Assembly: GCA_017407885.1 (NCBI GenBank) | Contig: JAFQVU010000088.1 | Location: 1-6,530 of the forward strand | DNA: 6,530 nucleotides | Direction of reading: 5' to 3' | Origin: Clostridia bacterium | GTDB lineage: Bacteria > Bacillota_A > Clostridia > Oscillospirales > CAG-272 | Shown here: one piece after another, positions 1-4,316 of the stretch | How the letters are laid out: every line of letters starts with the position of its first letter | How positions within the stretch are numbered: position 1 is the first letter of the stretch | Notes under the pieces: model-generated | What the model was told of the DNA's origin: nothing | Databases searched by the model: none | Seen by the model: only the letters and a program-made list of their open reading frames with translations | Translations under genes and position numbers: made by a program

Positions 1-152
1 ATTGATACCGCAGTATGTGCGCCGGAGCAGACCTCCGTAAAAAAGTCAGCATATGACAGTATGCGAAAGTGGATGTGTTTACATCAAGCCGGGTGGCACC
101 GCAGGAGTTGATATCTCCTGTCCCAGCAGATTGTGGGGACAGGAGTTTTTTG
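1..152 (+). ncRNA. T-box riboswitch leader of trpB, 3' part only
   Basis: The conserved T-box core GGGTGGCACCGC is at 91-102, just after a small hairpin (GATGT 72-76 with ACATC 81-85) that fits the helix preceding the core. CAGGAG (102-107) can pair with CTCCTG (115-120) to form the antiterminator. The same CTCCTG is the 5' arm of the terminator that follows, so the two folds are mutually exclusive. This is the hallmark of a T-box: uncharged tRNA binds the antiterminator bulge and permits read-through. Stem I with the specifier codon lies upstream of the window, so the sensed tRNA is not visible. Tryptophan is expected from the downstream gene but is not shown. The left boundary is the window edge, not a real end. 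Confidence 0.9.
115..151 (+). terminator. Conditional terminator of the trpB T-box
   Basis: A perfect 10-bp stem, CTCCTGTCCC (115-124) with GGGACAGGAG (136-145), has an 11-nt loop and is followed by six T (146-151). Its 5' arm competes with the antiterminator, so it works as a regulated attenuator and not as the end of an upstream gene. Confidence 0.93.
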
Positions 153-214: not shown

Positions 215-1582
215 ATGGAAAATATCCCTTACAAAATTTACCTTAACGAAAACGAGCTTCCGAAGCAGTGGTACAACCTGCGCGCCGATATGAAAAACAA
301 ACCGGCACCGCTTCTCAATCCCGAGACAATGAAGCCTATGACCGCAGAGGAACTCGCCCCCGTATTCTGCGATGAGCTTATAAAGCAGGAGCTTGACGAC
401 ACTACTGCGTATTTCGACATTCCGGAAGAAATCCTTAACTTCTACAAGATGTACCGTCCCGCACCGCTTACACGCGCGTACTTCCTTGAAAAGAAGCTTG
501 GTACCCCCGCTAAAATATATTATAAATTTGAGGGAAATAATACCAGCGGTTCCCATAAGCTTAACTCCGCTATTGCGCAGGCTTACTACGCAAAGAAGCA
601 GGGACTTAAGGGTGTCACCACCGAAACCGGCGCAGGTCAGTGGGGCACAGCGCTCTCCATGGCTTGCTCATACTTCGACCTCGACTGCAAAGTATATATG
701 GTTAAGTGCTCATACGAGCAGAAGCCTTTCCGCCGCGAGGTCATGCGTACATACGGCGCATCGGTAACCCCCTCTCCGTCCATGGATACTGCAGTCGGAC
801 GCAAGATAAATGCTGAGTTTCCGGGAACCGGCGGAAGCCTCGGATGCGCTATTTCCGAAGCGGTCGAAGCTGCCACCTCGATGGAAGGATACCGTTACGT
901 CCTCGGAAGTGTTATGAATCAGGTGCTCCTGCATCAGTCCATAATCGGTCTTGAATCCAAGCTCGCTATGGATAAATTCGGCATCAAGCCGGATATCATC
1001 ATCGGCTGTGCCGGCGGTGGCTCCAATCTCGGCGGTCTTATTTCGCCTTTCATGGGTGAGAAGATACGCGGTGAGGCTGATTACCGCTTCATTGCAGTTG
1101 AGCCTGCATCATGCCCGAGTCTTACCCGCGGCAAATATGCATACGACTACTGCGACACCGGCGCGGTCTGCCCTCTACAGAAAATGTATACACTCGGAAG
1201 TGGATTTATGCCGGCGGCAACTCATGCAGGCGGTTTGCGTTACCACGGCATGAGCTCAACCCTTTCACAGCTTTATGACGACGGCTTAATGGAAGCTGTT
1301 TCTGTCGATCAGACAGACGTATTCGCGGCGGCAGAACTGTTCGCCCGCGTTGAAGGTACACTTCCCGCCCCCGAATCGAGCCACGCAATCCGCGTTGCAA
1401 TCGACGAGGCACTCAAATGCAAGGAGACCGGCGAAGAAAAAACGATTTTCTTCGGTCTGACCGGTACGGGATACTTTGATATGATGTCCTATGAAAAATT
1501 CCACAACGGCGTCATGCAGAACTACGTTCCCACCGATGAGGAAATCAACAAGGCGCTCGCGAAGTTACCCAAAGTTGAATAA
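215..1582 (+). CDS. trpB: Tryptophan synthase beta chain, TrpB2 type (PLP-dependent)
   Basis: TrpB condenses indole with L-serine to give tryptophan using pyridoxal phosphate, in the cytoplasm. At 455 residues it is longer than classical TrpB1 (about 400) and has the extended N-terminal region typical of TrpB2. Visible motifs are the PLP-lysine segment GSHKLNSA with K115, the ETGAGQWG motif with the expected catalytic acid E137, and the glycine-rich phosphate-binding loop GCAGGGSNLGG (264-274). The ATG at 215 follows AAAGGA (200-205) at 9-nt spacing. No trpA or other trp gene is next to it: an intrinsic terminator follows the stop directly and the next gene is convergent. As a T-box-controlled single gene it probably salvages free indole, or pairs with a TrpA encoded elsewhere. 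TrpB2 proteins often couple poorly to TrpA. O-phosphoserine use or serine deaminase activity is possible and cannot be excluded here. Confidence 0.95.
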   Translation: MENIPYKIYLNENELPKQWYNLRADMKNKPAPLLNPETMKPMTAEELAPVFCDELIKQELDDTTAYFDIPEEILNFYKMYRPAPLTRAYFLEKKLGTPAKIYYKFEGNNTSGSHKLNSAIAQAYYAKKQGLKGVTTETGAGQWGTALSMACSYFDLDCKVYMVKCSYEQKPFRREVMRTYGASVTPSPSMDTAVGRKINAEFPGTGGSLGCAISEAVEAATSMEGYRYVLGSVMNQVLLHQSIIGLESKLAMDKFGIKPDIIIGCAGGGSNLGGLISPFMGEKIRGEADYRFIAVEPASCPSLTRGKYAYDYCDTGAVCPLQKMYTLGSGFMPAATHAGGLRYHGMSSTLSQLYDDGLMEAVSVDQTDVFAAAELFARVEGTLPAPESSHAIRVAIDEALKCKETGEEKTIFFGLTGTGYFDMMSYEKFHNGVMQNYVPTDEEINKALAKLPKVE

Positions 1583-1633: not shown

Positions 1634-3925
1634 TTATTTTTTCTCGTCTCCGCGAAGCTCAACACGGCGAATCTTACCGCTGATCGTCTTCGGAAGCTCA
1701 TCCATGAATTCAACAATTCTCGGATACTTATACGGCGCGGTGTGCGTCTTGACGTATTCCTGAATTTCCTTTTTCAGTGCATCATTGCCCTCTTTACCCT
1801 TGACAAGAACAATAGATGCCTTGACTACCTGACCGCGAATCTCGTCGGGTGCCGCGGTGATAGCACATTCAAGGACATACGGAAGCTCCATTATTACCGA
1901 CTCGATCTCAAACGGACCGATACGGTATCCGCTCGACTTGATGAGGTCATCGGTACGTCCGACGTACCAATAATAGCCGTCCTCGTCCATCCACGCAGTA
2001 TCTCCGGTGTGGTAATATCCGTCATGCCATGCTTCCTTGGTCTTTTCGTCGTTATCATAATATCCGAGGAAGAGGCCGCAGGGGACGTGTTCTGCGGTAC
2101 GGATGCAAATCTCGCCTGTCTCACCGATCGCACAGCGCTTACCGTCAGGATCAAGGATCTGTACATCGTAAAGCGGGCTCGGCTTACCCATCGACCCGGG
2201 TTTAGGTTCCATTCCGACAAGGTTTGCAAGTGCAAGCGTAGTCTCGGTCTGACCGAAGCCTTCCATCAGCGCAATGCCGGTTGCCTTGATCCACTGCTGA
2301 TATACCTCGGGGTTGAGTGCCTCGCCTGCTGTGTTGGAATACTTAAGGCTCGACAGATCAAAGCGCGAGAGATCTTCCTTTATAAAGAAGCGGTACATGG
2401 TAGGCGGAGCACAGAATGTTGTGATGCCGTATTTTGCGAACAGCGGAAGGATGTCGTTCGCATCAAACTTGTTGAAATCGTATGTAAACACCGCCGCCTC
2501 GCAGAGCCACTGTCCGTAGTATTTACCCCACAGTGCCTTGCCCCATCCGGTATCGGAGATAGTAAAGTGGATACCGTCGGGGTCTACATTGTGCCAATAC
2601 TTTGCAGTGATAAAGTGACCGAGCGCATATTTGCAGCTGTGCGTTGCAATCTTGGGATATCCGGTCGTACCCGAAGTGAAAAACATGAGTATCGGATCGT
2701 CTCCGCACGCAGTGTCATCGGTGCGCTCATATACATCGGAGAAATTCTCAAATTCCTCAAATTTGCGCCAGCCGTCCATTTCTTTGTGTTCATTAGCGCA
2801 ACAGAGTATCTTTGTCTTAAGGCTTTCACATTTTGGAGCCGCAAGCTCTGCCTGATGCGCTACGTCACCGTCTGCGGTGCAGATGACTGCAGACACGCCC
2901 GCCGCATTGAAACGGTACTCAAAATCATGCTCAACGAGTAGGTTTGTCGCCGGGATAATGACAGCTCCCATCTTATGAAGAGCGGTGATGGTTACCCAGA
3001 ACTGCCAATGGCGCTTGAGAACGACCAGCACGCGGTCACCCTTTTTAATTCCGAGCGATTCAAAGTAATTTGCCGCTTTTGCAGAAAGCTTTGATATGTC
3101 TCCGAATGTAAAACGGCGCTCGGTTTTATCCGCAGAAAGATGAAGCATCGCAAGCTTGTCAGGATTCTTTGCAGCGATTGCATCCACGCAGTCAAAACCG
3201 AAGTTGAACTTGTTCTCGTCCTTAAATTTAATCGAATTTAAAACACCCTTGTCATCAAGCGTCGTTTCGATAAAGTTTTCCCAGACTGCACCTGTTTTTT
3301 CGACAGAAACTACACGGGGTGTTTTTTCAAATGTCGGCGCGCTGTAGTCATACGCCTTACCCTCTGCATCAATTACAACTGCAAGGAATTTACAATCTGT
3401 GCCATATGCAACCATACCGTGAGGTGTTCCGCTGTCATAGTAGATTGAATCGCCTTCGGAGAGCACCTCAACATGATCGTCGATCTGCACCTTCAAATTA
3501 CCCTCGAGAATATAGTCAAACTCCTGCCCCTCGTGAGTTGCAAGCTTGATCGGTCTATTCTGCTCTTCCTCGTGATATGCGGCTGTAACAACAAACGGCT
3601 CGGCTGTTTTATTTTTAAAAAGCGGAGCAAGGTTGTTGTATCTGAAGCCCTTACGGCGCACGATTGGAAGCCCCTCACCGGATTTTGTAACCGAGAATGA
3701 GGTAAGAGTTGGGCTGGAGCCTTTCAGAATATCCGTGGCATCAACCCCAAAGGTCTGTGCACATTTATGTATAAAGGTGAAGCTGAAGTCAGACTCGCCG
3801 GATTCGACAGCCATGTATTCTTCTTCACTGACACCGGTACGCTTCGCCATTTCATCTGTCGTGAGTCCCATAATTTCACGAAGCGCGACAAGACGTTCGG
3901 CAATCTCTTTTAATTTGTTTTCCAT
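1634..3925 (-). CDS. HTH (XRE)-cupin-acyl-CoA synthetase (AMP-forming) fusion protein
   Basis: One continuous 763-residue frame holds three modules. An XRE-type helix-turn-helix is at about 4-69 (MGLTTDEMAKRTGVSEEEY core). A cupin is at about 110-190, with likely metal ligands H131, E135 and H169. An AMP-forming acyl-CoA ligase occupies about 205-763. Ligase motifs are the P-loop TSGTTGYPK (417-425), GFGQTET (556-562), TGD (640-642) and the C-terminal catalytic lysine K751 in PKTISGKIRR. The block beginning SDTGWGKALWGKYYG resembles medium-chain acyl-CoA synthetases. The reaction would be carboxylate + ATP + CoA to acyl-CoA + AMP + PPi; the substrate cannot be read. The start is the ATG at 3925, 8 nt after GGAGG. 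An upstream in-frame TTG (3940) overlaps that Shine-Dalgarno and is unlikely. A T-box leader lies upstream, so expression should rise when a particular tRNA is uncharged. The HTH-cupin half looks like a small-molecule-sensing repressor and may autoregulate. Confidence 0.92.
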   Translation of the reverse strand: MENKLKEIAERLVALREIMGLTTDEMAKRTGVSEEEYMAVESGESDFSFTFIHKCAQTFGVDATDILKGSSPTLTSFSVTKSGEGLPIVRRKGFRYNNLAPLFKNKTAEPFVVTAAYHEEEQNRPIKLATHEGQEFDYILEGNLKVQIDDHVEVLSEGDSIYYDSGTPHGMVAYGTDCKFLAVVIDAEGKAYDYSAPTFEKTPRVVSVEKTGAVWENFIETTLDDKGVLNSIKFKDENKFNFGFDCVDAIAAKNPDKLAMLHLSADKTERRFTFGDISKLSAKAANYFESLGIKKGDRVLVVLKRHWQFWVTITALHKMGAVIIPATNLLVEHDFEYRFNAAGVSAVICTADGDVAHQAELAAPKCESLKTKILCCANEHKEMDGWRKFEEFENFSDVYERTDDTACGDDPILMFFTSGTTGYPKIATHSCKYALGHFITAKYWHNVDPDGIHFTISDTGWGKALWGKYYGQWLCEAAVFTYDFNKFDANDILPLFAKYGITTFCAPPTMYRFFIKEDLSRFDLSSLKYSNTAGEALNPEVYQQWIKATGIALMEGFGQTETTLALANLVGMEPKPGSMGKPSPLYDVQILDPDGKRCAIGETGEICIRTAEHVPCGLFLGYYDNDEKTKEAWHDGYYHTGDTAWMDEDGYYWYVGRTDDLIKSSGYRIGPFEIESVIMELPYVLECAITAAPDEIRGQVVKASIVLVKGKEGNDALKKEIQEYVKTHTAPYKYPRIVEFMDELPKTISGKIRRVELRGDEKK

Positions 3926-3933
3926 AGTAAAAT

Positions 3934-3938
3934 CCTCC
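3934..3938 (-). promoter_or_regulatory. Shine-Dalgarno that fixes the ligase start
   Basis: GGAGG on the minus strand lies 8 nt before the ATG at 3925-3923. The only longer in-frame option is a TTG whose final G pairs into this element, so the ATG is preferred and the protein begins MENKLKEIAER. Confidence 0.85.
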
Positions 3939-4000
3939 AAAAATTGAAATAGTAAAATTCAGAAGGCTTGGACCTCTCGGCAATTTGATTTCGGAAAAAC

Positions 4001-4043
4001 AAAAAACGCCTCAAAGCGGGAACTCTTCCCTTTCTTTGAGACG
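4001..4043 (-). terminator. Conditional terminator of the ligase T-box
   Basis: On the minus strand CGTCTCAAAG (4043-4034) pairs with CTTTGAGGCG (4016-4007) with one G-U. An inner helix GGGAA (4030-4026)/TTCCC (4022-4018) extends it, and six T follow (4006-4001). The 5' arm overlaps the antiterminator's 3' arm (ATTCCG, 4047-4042), which gives the alternative folds expected of a T-box switch. Confidence 0.93.
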
Positions 4044-4281
4044 GAATGTTTAACTATTCCGCGGTACCACTCAAATTGCGCATTTAACGCCACTTTGCGG
4101 ACTCTAACAAGTCCTTTGTCTTTACGCGACAGCACGTGAAAGCCTACTTATAAAAACATGTTCGGTTCCAAGCTCGGAAGCGATTGGTCGTATTGATAAA
4201 CACCACATCGGCTCGCACCATCCGCCGACTCTCTGAAGAAACATCTATCTGACCGTCTTCGTCACAGCCTTTTTATTTACG
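4001..4281 (-). ncRNA. Complete T-box riboswitch leader of the HTH-cupin-ligase gene
   Basis: Read on the minus strand, the leader starts about 7 nt after a consensus -10. The base of Stem I carries a kink-turn: GC (4268-4267), a UGU bulge and GA (4263-4262) opposite GA (4175-4174) and GC (4173-4172), continued by GAAG/CUUC. The conserved AGAGAG is at 4234-4229, followed by a distal hairpin, UCGGC (4228-4224) with GCCGA (4212-4208). The T-box core TGGTACCGCGG is at 4069-4059. The antiterminator CGGAAT (4061-4056) pairs with ATTCCG (4047-4042). The specifier lies on the 3' arm around 4192-4181, but the register is ambiguous. AUC (4184-4182, Ile), ACC (4188-4186, Thr), GAC (4189-4187, Asp) and UAC (4192-4190, Tyr) all occur there, so the tRNA is not assigned. 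Confidence 0.93.
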
Positions 4282-4303
4282 TTTAGTATTATAGCATACT
4301 AAA
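4282..4303. promoter_or_regulatory. Inverted repeat over the -10 of the ligase promoter (operator candidate)
   Basis: TTTAGTAT (4282-4289) and ATACTAAA (4296-4303) form a perfect 8-bp inverted repeat with a 6-bp spacer that covers the minus-strand -10 hexamer. A bound dimer would block RNA polymerase. Its right arm also forms a 9-bp inverted pair with a second copy: GCATACTAA (4294-4302) and TTAGTATGC (4323-4331), about three helical turns apart centre to centre. The arrangement is seen directly; binding is inferred. Confidence 0.45.
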
Positions 4304-4316
4304 GTGAGATTGTCAA
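4288..4316 (-). promoter_or_regulatory. Consensus sigma-A promoter of the T-box-ligase unit
   Basis: On the minus strand a perfect TTGACA (4316-4311) is separated by 17 nt from a perfect TATAAT (4293-4288). Transcription should start near 4281, giving a leader of about 355 nt before the ligase ATG. A fully consensus core suits a gene controlled by downstream attenuation or by a repressor. Confidence 0.9.

Follow-up and report, generated by a model that had tools for sequence, protein, structure and literature searches.

T-box leaders are RNA switches that raise the expression of the genes downstream when their amino acid is scarce. In Listeria, the enzyme MbcS makes branched acyl-CoA primers for the anteiso fatty acids of the membrane. 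The acyl-CoA ligase MacsMa of Methanosarcina acetivorans prefers 2-methylbutyrate, and in its pocket a glycine replaces the tryptophan that sets the substrate range of acetyl-CoA synthetases (Acs), another tryptophan being used instead (PMC10455477; this and the other papers are cited for those parts of their text that were available to us). The use of branched acids as amino-acid precursors is long-known physiology in methanogens (PMC10658910) and rumen cultures (PMC7356843), and branched-chain volatile fatty acids were described as growth factors of rumen bacteria in the 1960s (Allison et al. 1962, cited in PMC7356843). Here we describe a stretch of 6,530 nucleotides (the window) from contig JAFQVU010000088.1 of a gut bacterium of the Clostridia, order Oscillospirales (assembly GCA_017407885.1), in which a T-box with an isoleucine specifier precedes a gene that fuses a helix-turn-helix (HTH) domain and a cupin domain to an AMP-forming acyl-CoA ligase. 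On the sequence evidence, the fusion is probably (at a rough probability of 0.8) a 2-methylbutyrate-CoA ligase that serves isoleucine synthesis from branched-chain volatile fatty acids and is induced by uncharged tRNA-Ile.

In the proposed pathway, uncharged tRNA-Ile would promote read-through of the T-box terminator and thereby yield the ligase transcript. The fusion, with 2-methylbutyrate as its most likely main substrate, would form 2-methylbutyryl-CoA in an AMP-forming reaction, and this product would be reductively carboxylated to 3-methyl-2-oxopentanoate by VorABC, a ferredoxin oxidoreductase of the 2-oxoisovalerate type. Transamination by IlvE would then give isoleucine. A duplicated sister ligase, found in relatives under a valine (GUA) T-box, most likely leads from isobutyrate to valine in the same way. 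The sequences themselves show the T-box, both specifiers, the class of the ligase, the operons of relatives and how often IlvC and IlvD are missing; the substrate, the direction in which Vor runs, the reaction of the leader to tRNA charging and the extension from relatives to the organism of the window are inferred.

The T-box leader and its specifier

An initial annotation of the stretch, made from its letters, had described a complete T-box in front of the fusion gene, with a T-box core, the AGAGAG motif and a competing terminator, and this description holds. The Rfam T-box model (RF00230) aligns to the leader over its full length (cmscan, model positions 1-219, 84.4 bits, E 6.7e-19), and the alignment includes a stem I with kink-turn, AGAGAG motif and specifier loop. 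The match lies below the Rfam gathering threshold of 93, which is a curator's cut-off and not a trait of the RNA, and the leaders of orthologous ligases straddle it with scores from 75.1 to 106.9 bits: those of the nearest relatives fall below (G001 87.7, G002 91.5, G003 75.1), and others lie above (G017:C19:3789 96.0, G030:C174:12096 104.9, G012:C53:50198 105.1, G024:C21:113445 106.9). The core UGGNACCGCG and the AGAGAG motif were located by sequence, and the antiterminator is mutually exclusive with an intrinsic terminator, the stem of which (4043-4007) is followed by six U. Folding of the RNA from 4096 to 3985 gives a z of -2.60, with 3 of 200 shuffles equally good. The fold of the entire leader alone is uninformative (z -1.07), and a simple terminator scan, confined to loops of 3-8, found no minus-strand terminator at the leader.

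The specifier of the window's leader reads AUC, for isoleucine, and this reading was extended to a first set of 80 loci, the best 80 of at least 558 confirmed relatives. A T-box core lies upstream of the ligase in 69 of the 80 (67 standard cores and two variants, in L013 and L058); no core is visible upstream in ten, and L051 has just 87 bases upstream in its locus. With the window there are thus 70 leaders with a core, 68 of which were parsed (L028 and L058 are cut by a contig end), and all 68 readable leaders carry AUC, 67 by script and one, the mis-parsed L007, by eye. A short helix beside the specifier loop has four of four pairs in 44 of 64 leaders, three in 13 and fewer in seven, and it changes on both sides (GGUC/GACC, GGAU/AUCC, GGCA/UGCC). 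The variable base of the bulge, left free in the search, is U in 69/69 relatives' cores. Position 73 is A in tRNA-Ile and tRNA-Val and G in tRNA-Ser, so the bulge fits the first two and not the third. The reading rule was checked on leaders of another kind: among 15 leaders parsed in 40 loci, the three that precede pheS-like genes (identified by eye) give UUC; at least three rows of that scan (L090, L100, L117) look wrong. One T-box scanner returned AUC in 62 of the 80 loci (a core is present in 69) and took one leader for AAA. A second set covers 52 regions, taken from further genomes of the order and holding 61 ligase starts; it yielded AUC 32 times, GUA 12 times and no other codon, with no T-box found for 17 starts; four of its leaders were read by eye, and in six a triple further upstream that the script had returned was set aside.

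Operons with Vor and IlvE

Eight loci share the arrangement T-box(Ile)-ligase, T-box(Val)-ligase, NTPase, VorB, VorA, VorC, IlvE. The same-strand series of P-loop NTPase, VorB, VorA, VorC and IlvE follows the ligase, or the pair of ligases, in L034, L044, L060, L061, L064, L067, L072, L075, L078 and others. Ligase, VorABC and a branched-chain aminotransferase share one neighbourhood in relatives that include L034, L176 and L178. The assignments of VorB (NF005507; 540.7 bits in L034 and 548.8 in L044, cut-off 399) and IlvE (TIGR01123; 395.5 and 417.6 bits, cut-off 250) are above threshold in both loci examined, and VorA and VorC match oxidoreductase beta and gamma families under the equivalog cut-offs, with the Pfam domains TPP_enzyme_C and POR above theirs. 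The vor-ilvE operon of G008 carries its own AUC T-box (L128). The T-box of the corresponding operon in G040 is probably GUA; this one leader, listed as both L140 and L090, was read as UGU in one scan and as GUA in the other, so its valine label is doubtful.

The valine-specified sister ligase

The eight first-set loci with tandem ligases have a T-box for each, the first AUC and the second GUA (by eye in L078), and two further GUA ligases lie elsewhere in the genomes (L143, L144). In a quick tree these ten GUA ligases form one clade within the AUC ligases, with an SH-aLRT support of 97. Tandem pairs of the second set repeat the arrangement, with AUC followed by GUA in eight of nine; the search of the ninth, L217, turned up no T-box upstream of its second ligase. 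Residue 462 is a glycine in 70/70 AUC ligases, a count from which L132 (an AUC ligase with Ala at 462) is excluded, and Ala in 10/10 GUA ligases. Because the GUA ligases form one clade, this difference may reflect ancestry only.

A restriction of the valine-type ligase to genomes that have no IlvC was considered and rejected: the first set fits (IlvC is over cut-off in none of the 10 genomes), but G115 of the second set has both. The first ligase of L068 is followed by a GUA T-box (L068:10522), but its genome yielded no second ligase of full length. A third type of T-box, CUC (Leu), stands before LeuA-like genes at L044:2770, L060:11949 and L132:3572 (-); the gene in L044, the one checked, matched 16 NCBIfam models, each with a score under its cut-off.

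Genome content

Vor-type genes were looked for in 40 ligase-bearing genomes, hand-picked from the 80, and VorB is over cut-off in 37 of them (in G016 as two pieces). IlvC is over cut-off in nine, or kept in ten when the two pieces in G002 are counted, and was not found in the remaining 30, where IlvC matches do not exceed 31 bits; all of the 14 control genomes have it. IlvD is over cut-off in 9/40 (split in G038), and six more genomes encode IlvD-like proteins of 495 to 526 bits, below the cut-off of 618. L001, one of the nearest relatives, with a ligase 86% identical to that of the window, comes from a genome without IlvC and IlvD. G020 combines IlvC and IlvD with a single Ile-specified ligase in a vor-ilvE operon, and no IlvA or CimA over cut-off was found there. 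In G001 and G006 citramalate synthase is over cut-off even though IlvC is missing; IlvD was not found above its cut-off in either genome.

The association was also followed in 147 evenly drawn genomes of the order, mostly metagenome-assembled and possibly incomplete, with about seven candidates per genome scored for a limit of 960 bits. IlvC is present in 9/49 genomes whose ligase reaches 960 bits versus 67/98 others (Fisher p 8.8e-9, kinship ignored). When any ligase match at 1e-200 is accepted, the figures are 20/71 versus 56/76 (p 3.4e-8, kinship again ignored).

Substrate of the ligase

The best match of the ligase among structures in the PDB is 3ETC, which is MacsMa, at 653.6 bits, the next reaching 378.7. 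Residues Gly558 and Trp444 occur in the window's ligase and in 94/94 aligned ligases of at least 55% identity (eight more distant ones were left out). Their equivalence to the pocket residues of MacsMa was read by eye from the alignment with 3ETC, in which the tryptophan is chain residue 260 versus 259 in the paper. Since isoleucine- and valine-type ligases share both residues, the pocket cannot tell the two substrates apart.

The initial annotation had gone on to suggest that the ligase feeds amino acid synthesis, for example by activating a branched-chain or an aryl acid for a 2-oxoacid:ferredoxin oxidoreductase, and had counted as signs to the contrary a leader that fails a T-box covariance model, or a ligase confined to ordinary fatty acids with no amino acid link in homologous neighbourhoods. 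The leader does fit the model, at E 6.7e-19 though below the Rfam threshold. Links to amino acids are present, as the operons of relatives join the ligase with VorABC and a branched-chain aminotransferase, and the suggestion gains support from them. The branched-chain version is narrowed by the isoleucine specifier, the valine sister clade and a 2-methylbutyrate ligase as the closest structure. Nothing in favour of the aryl acids turned up, no search having been aimed at them.

Weighing the evidence

Several observations weigh against the assignment of the fusion to isoleucine synthesis from 2-methylbutyrate. Within the window the ligase has a TrpB-like gene and a flavin reductase as neighbours, and its 6.5 kb hold no vor or ilvE gene. 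In the three closest relatives the vor genes sit on a different contig from the ligase, and a scanner that recovered 62/69 known AUC leaders detected no T-box next to them; across the even sample, ligase and VorB are at most 10 kb apart in 17/49 genomes. VorB is present in 48/49 ligase genomes, and also (E 1e-60 or better) in 47/98 without the fusion, so Vor alone is not diagnostic of the pathway. IlvC is kept in 10/40 genomes, those of near relatives among them (G002 and G003; the nearest relatives L002 and L003 both come from genomes with IlvC). As seven of the ten IlvC-bearing genomes also have IlvA, the ligase there looks like an added salvage route. The 960-bit limit was chosen after the list had been seen, and kinship among the genomes does not enter the statistics of the IlvC association. 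L132 adjoins the GUA clade yet has AUC, so that codon and clade match imperfectly. Finally, a T-box could not be found for every ligase: the exceptions are ten in the first set (nine from one Ruminococcus-rich clade), eight distant ones, and 17/61 in the second set. Genome G024, that of the cultured Ruminococcus flavefaciens SAb67, has two ligases, L141 under an AUC T-box and L054 with none.

A link to isoleucine would also arise if the ligase activated propionate, with propionyl-CoA carboxylated to 2-oxobutyrate and passed to the classical IlvBCD route. The 10/40 genomes that keep IlvC (one of them split) suit this idea, in particular G020 and G038, which keep IlvC and have no IlvA or CimA over cut-off. 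In the 30/40 genomes where IlvC is missing, however, 2-oxobutyrate would lead nowhere by the classical route; the Val-specified sister ligase would be left unexplained, and the closest solved enzyme prefers 2-methylbutyrate. We therefore regard the propionate route as improbable. A shade less probable again is a role in making branched acyl-CoA primers for anteiso lipids, in which the isoleucine T-box would sense primer shortage by proxy. MbcS is indeed the best NCBIfam match of the fusion (436.7 bits, under the cut-off of 850), but its partners in the operons of relatives, Vor and a branched-chain aminotransferase, act in the synthesis or breakdown of amino acids and not of lipids, and the isoleucine and valine specifiers belong to two separate groups of ligases.

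That the specifier was misread, the real codon being UCN (Ser) one base further on, is scarcely credible. The triple is followed by different bases in the 68 parsed leaders (A in 43, C in 18, G in 6 and T in 1), so all UCN codons occur; against this, AUC itself is invariant, the GUA leaders share the same layout, the U in the bulge (69/69) does not suit the G73 of tRNA-Ser, and the same way of reading gives UUC in the three pheS-like leaders, one of which has C as the next base. Operation of the operon in the catabolic direction, from amino acid through acyl-CoA to branched acid with a gain of ATP, would call for expression opposite to that of a T-box, which induces at amino acid scarcity, and IlvC is missing in 30/40 genomes. 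We hold it to be very improbable, although Vor is known from branched-chain amino-acid oxidation (PMC13290082) and acts in this way in amino-acid fermenters.

The fusion gene and its surroundings

The features of the locus are collected in Table 1. The fusion of an XRE-type HTH, a cupin and an AMP-forming ligase, also part of the initial annotation, is borne out by four Pfam domains, all above their cut-offs. An alternative in-frame start, TTG at 3940, would give 768 aa. Residue K751, presumably the lysine to which a role in AMP-binding C-terminal domains is attributed, is invariant across 19 aligned sequences. The family is large, with at least 7,998 relatives scored, and HTH, cupin and both ligase domains are present in all 120 relatives listed with precomputed Pfam annotation, which are full-length. 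Its best NCBIfam match, MbcS (NF047394), covers the ligase part only, and filing the fusion under that name was rejected at 436.7 bits versus an equivalog cut-off of 850. The promoter reaches 35 bases past the end of the span first annotated (4281). Three promoter-like sites were found in the region versus a mean of 1.1 in shuffles, and TTGAC(A)/TATAAT-like pairs lie upstream of the T-boxes in many relatives as well.

Table 1. Coordinates of the features of the fusion gene and its leader in the window
Feature	Position	Strand	Basis
Sigma-70 promoter, TTGACA-17-TATAAT with TG before the -10 box	4288..4316	-	12/12 matches
T-box leader (RF00230): stem I, linker stems, antiterminator	4034..4274	-	cmscan
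AGAGAG motif of stem I	4229..4234	-	Sequence; agrees with the conserved motif in the Rfam alignment
Specifier codon AUC (Ile), next base G	4182..4184	-	Position in the Rfam alignment
T-box core GTGGTACCGC, bulge UGGU, variable base U at 4066	4061..4070	-	Sequence
Intrinsic terminator with U tract, overlapping the antiterminator	4001..4043	-	RNA fold
HTH-cupin-acyl-CoA ligase fusion, 763 aa from ATG	1634..3925	-	Pfam, NCBIfam
XRE-type helix-turn-helix, HTH_19	3719..3898	-	Pfam, 33.3 bits (cut-off 30.2)
Cupin, Cupin_2	3377..3544	-	Pfam, 51 bits (cut-off 27.2)
AMP-binding (adenylation) domain	2057..3181	-	Pfam, 209.6 bits (cut-off 29.9)
AMP-binding_C domain, holding K751	1673..1909	-	Pfam, 75.8 bits (cut-off 24.5)

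A second layer of control may be considered tentatively, and we think it possible but doubtful. The fusion could be a trigger enzyme, the HTH-cupin half of which would bind promoter DNA and sense free branched acid or the state of the enzyme, and synthesis would then need both uncharged tRNA (through the T-box) and branched acid (through the cupin). In 23/80 relatives (L010, L012, L013 and 20 more loci) the stretch that leads from the -10 box to the T-box contains an identical 15-mer, TTTGAATATCACAAA, close to where transcription probably starts; the 15-mer is absent from the window and is a candidate operator for the HTH domain. Were the fusion a trigger enzyme, it would define an amino-acid regulon on cross-fed fatty acids, with one ligase and one specifier per amino acid. 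In two genomes reached via Lachnospiraceae loci, HTH-cupin and ligase are two separate adjacent stretches beside VorABC (L138:3453-5689 (-) and L139:3427-5627 (-)), and this split may show the origin of the fusion.

The window holds a second T-box at 1-128 (+), with its 5′ end cut (24.5 bits, E 0.001), upstream of the TrpB-like gene at 215-1582 (+) (NF009057, 674 bits versus 366). Its bulge is UGGC, and its specifier lies outside the window. A UGGC bulge would fit a tRNA with G73, such as tRNA-Trp.

Comparison with known systems

Among the papers listed by full-text searches of the open-licence literature, none deals with a T-box in front of either an acyl-CoA ligase or a Vor operon, and the terms 'acyl-CoA' and 'oxidoreductase' are absent from the main texts of the T-box surveys PMC2494555 and PMC3766115 as far as these could be searched by term. 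The new element appears to be the dedicated, codon-labelled set of genes, the physiology being already old. Read as a label, the specifier proposes an acid for each ligase, and thus the genes behind a requirement for branched acids. These genes may supply the genetics, so far lacking, behind a growth requirement that has been known in rumen bacteria since the 1960s. With them, carboxylic-acid ligases would join the targets of T-boxes. They also offer a testable gene set for cross-feeding on branched acids, with practical relevance for ruminant nutrition.

The T-box leaders in front of ileS and ilv genes (RF00230) share stem I, isoleucine specifier, T-box core, antiterminator and terminator with the leader described here; the difference lies in the gene that the present leader controls, which is a putative branched-acid CoA ligase, accompanied in relatives by Vor and IlvE, and not a tRNA ligase, a transporter or a classical ilv gene. 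MacsMa (3ETC) is the closest solved sequence, with the pocket glycine and tryptophan conserved, but it is an archaeal chain of 580 residues that aligns from residue 236 of the fusion on and has no HTH-cupin part. MbcS provides the best NCBIfam model, yet the match reaches about half of the curated cut-off and concerns the ligase part only. With respect to the physiology of branched acids as amino-acid precursors, the proposed pairs of precursor and product are the same, and to these the present locus and its relatives add candidate genes and an RNA switch.

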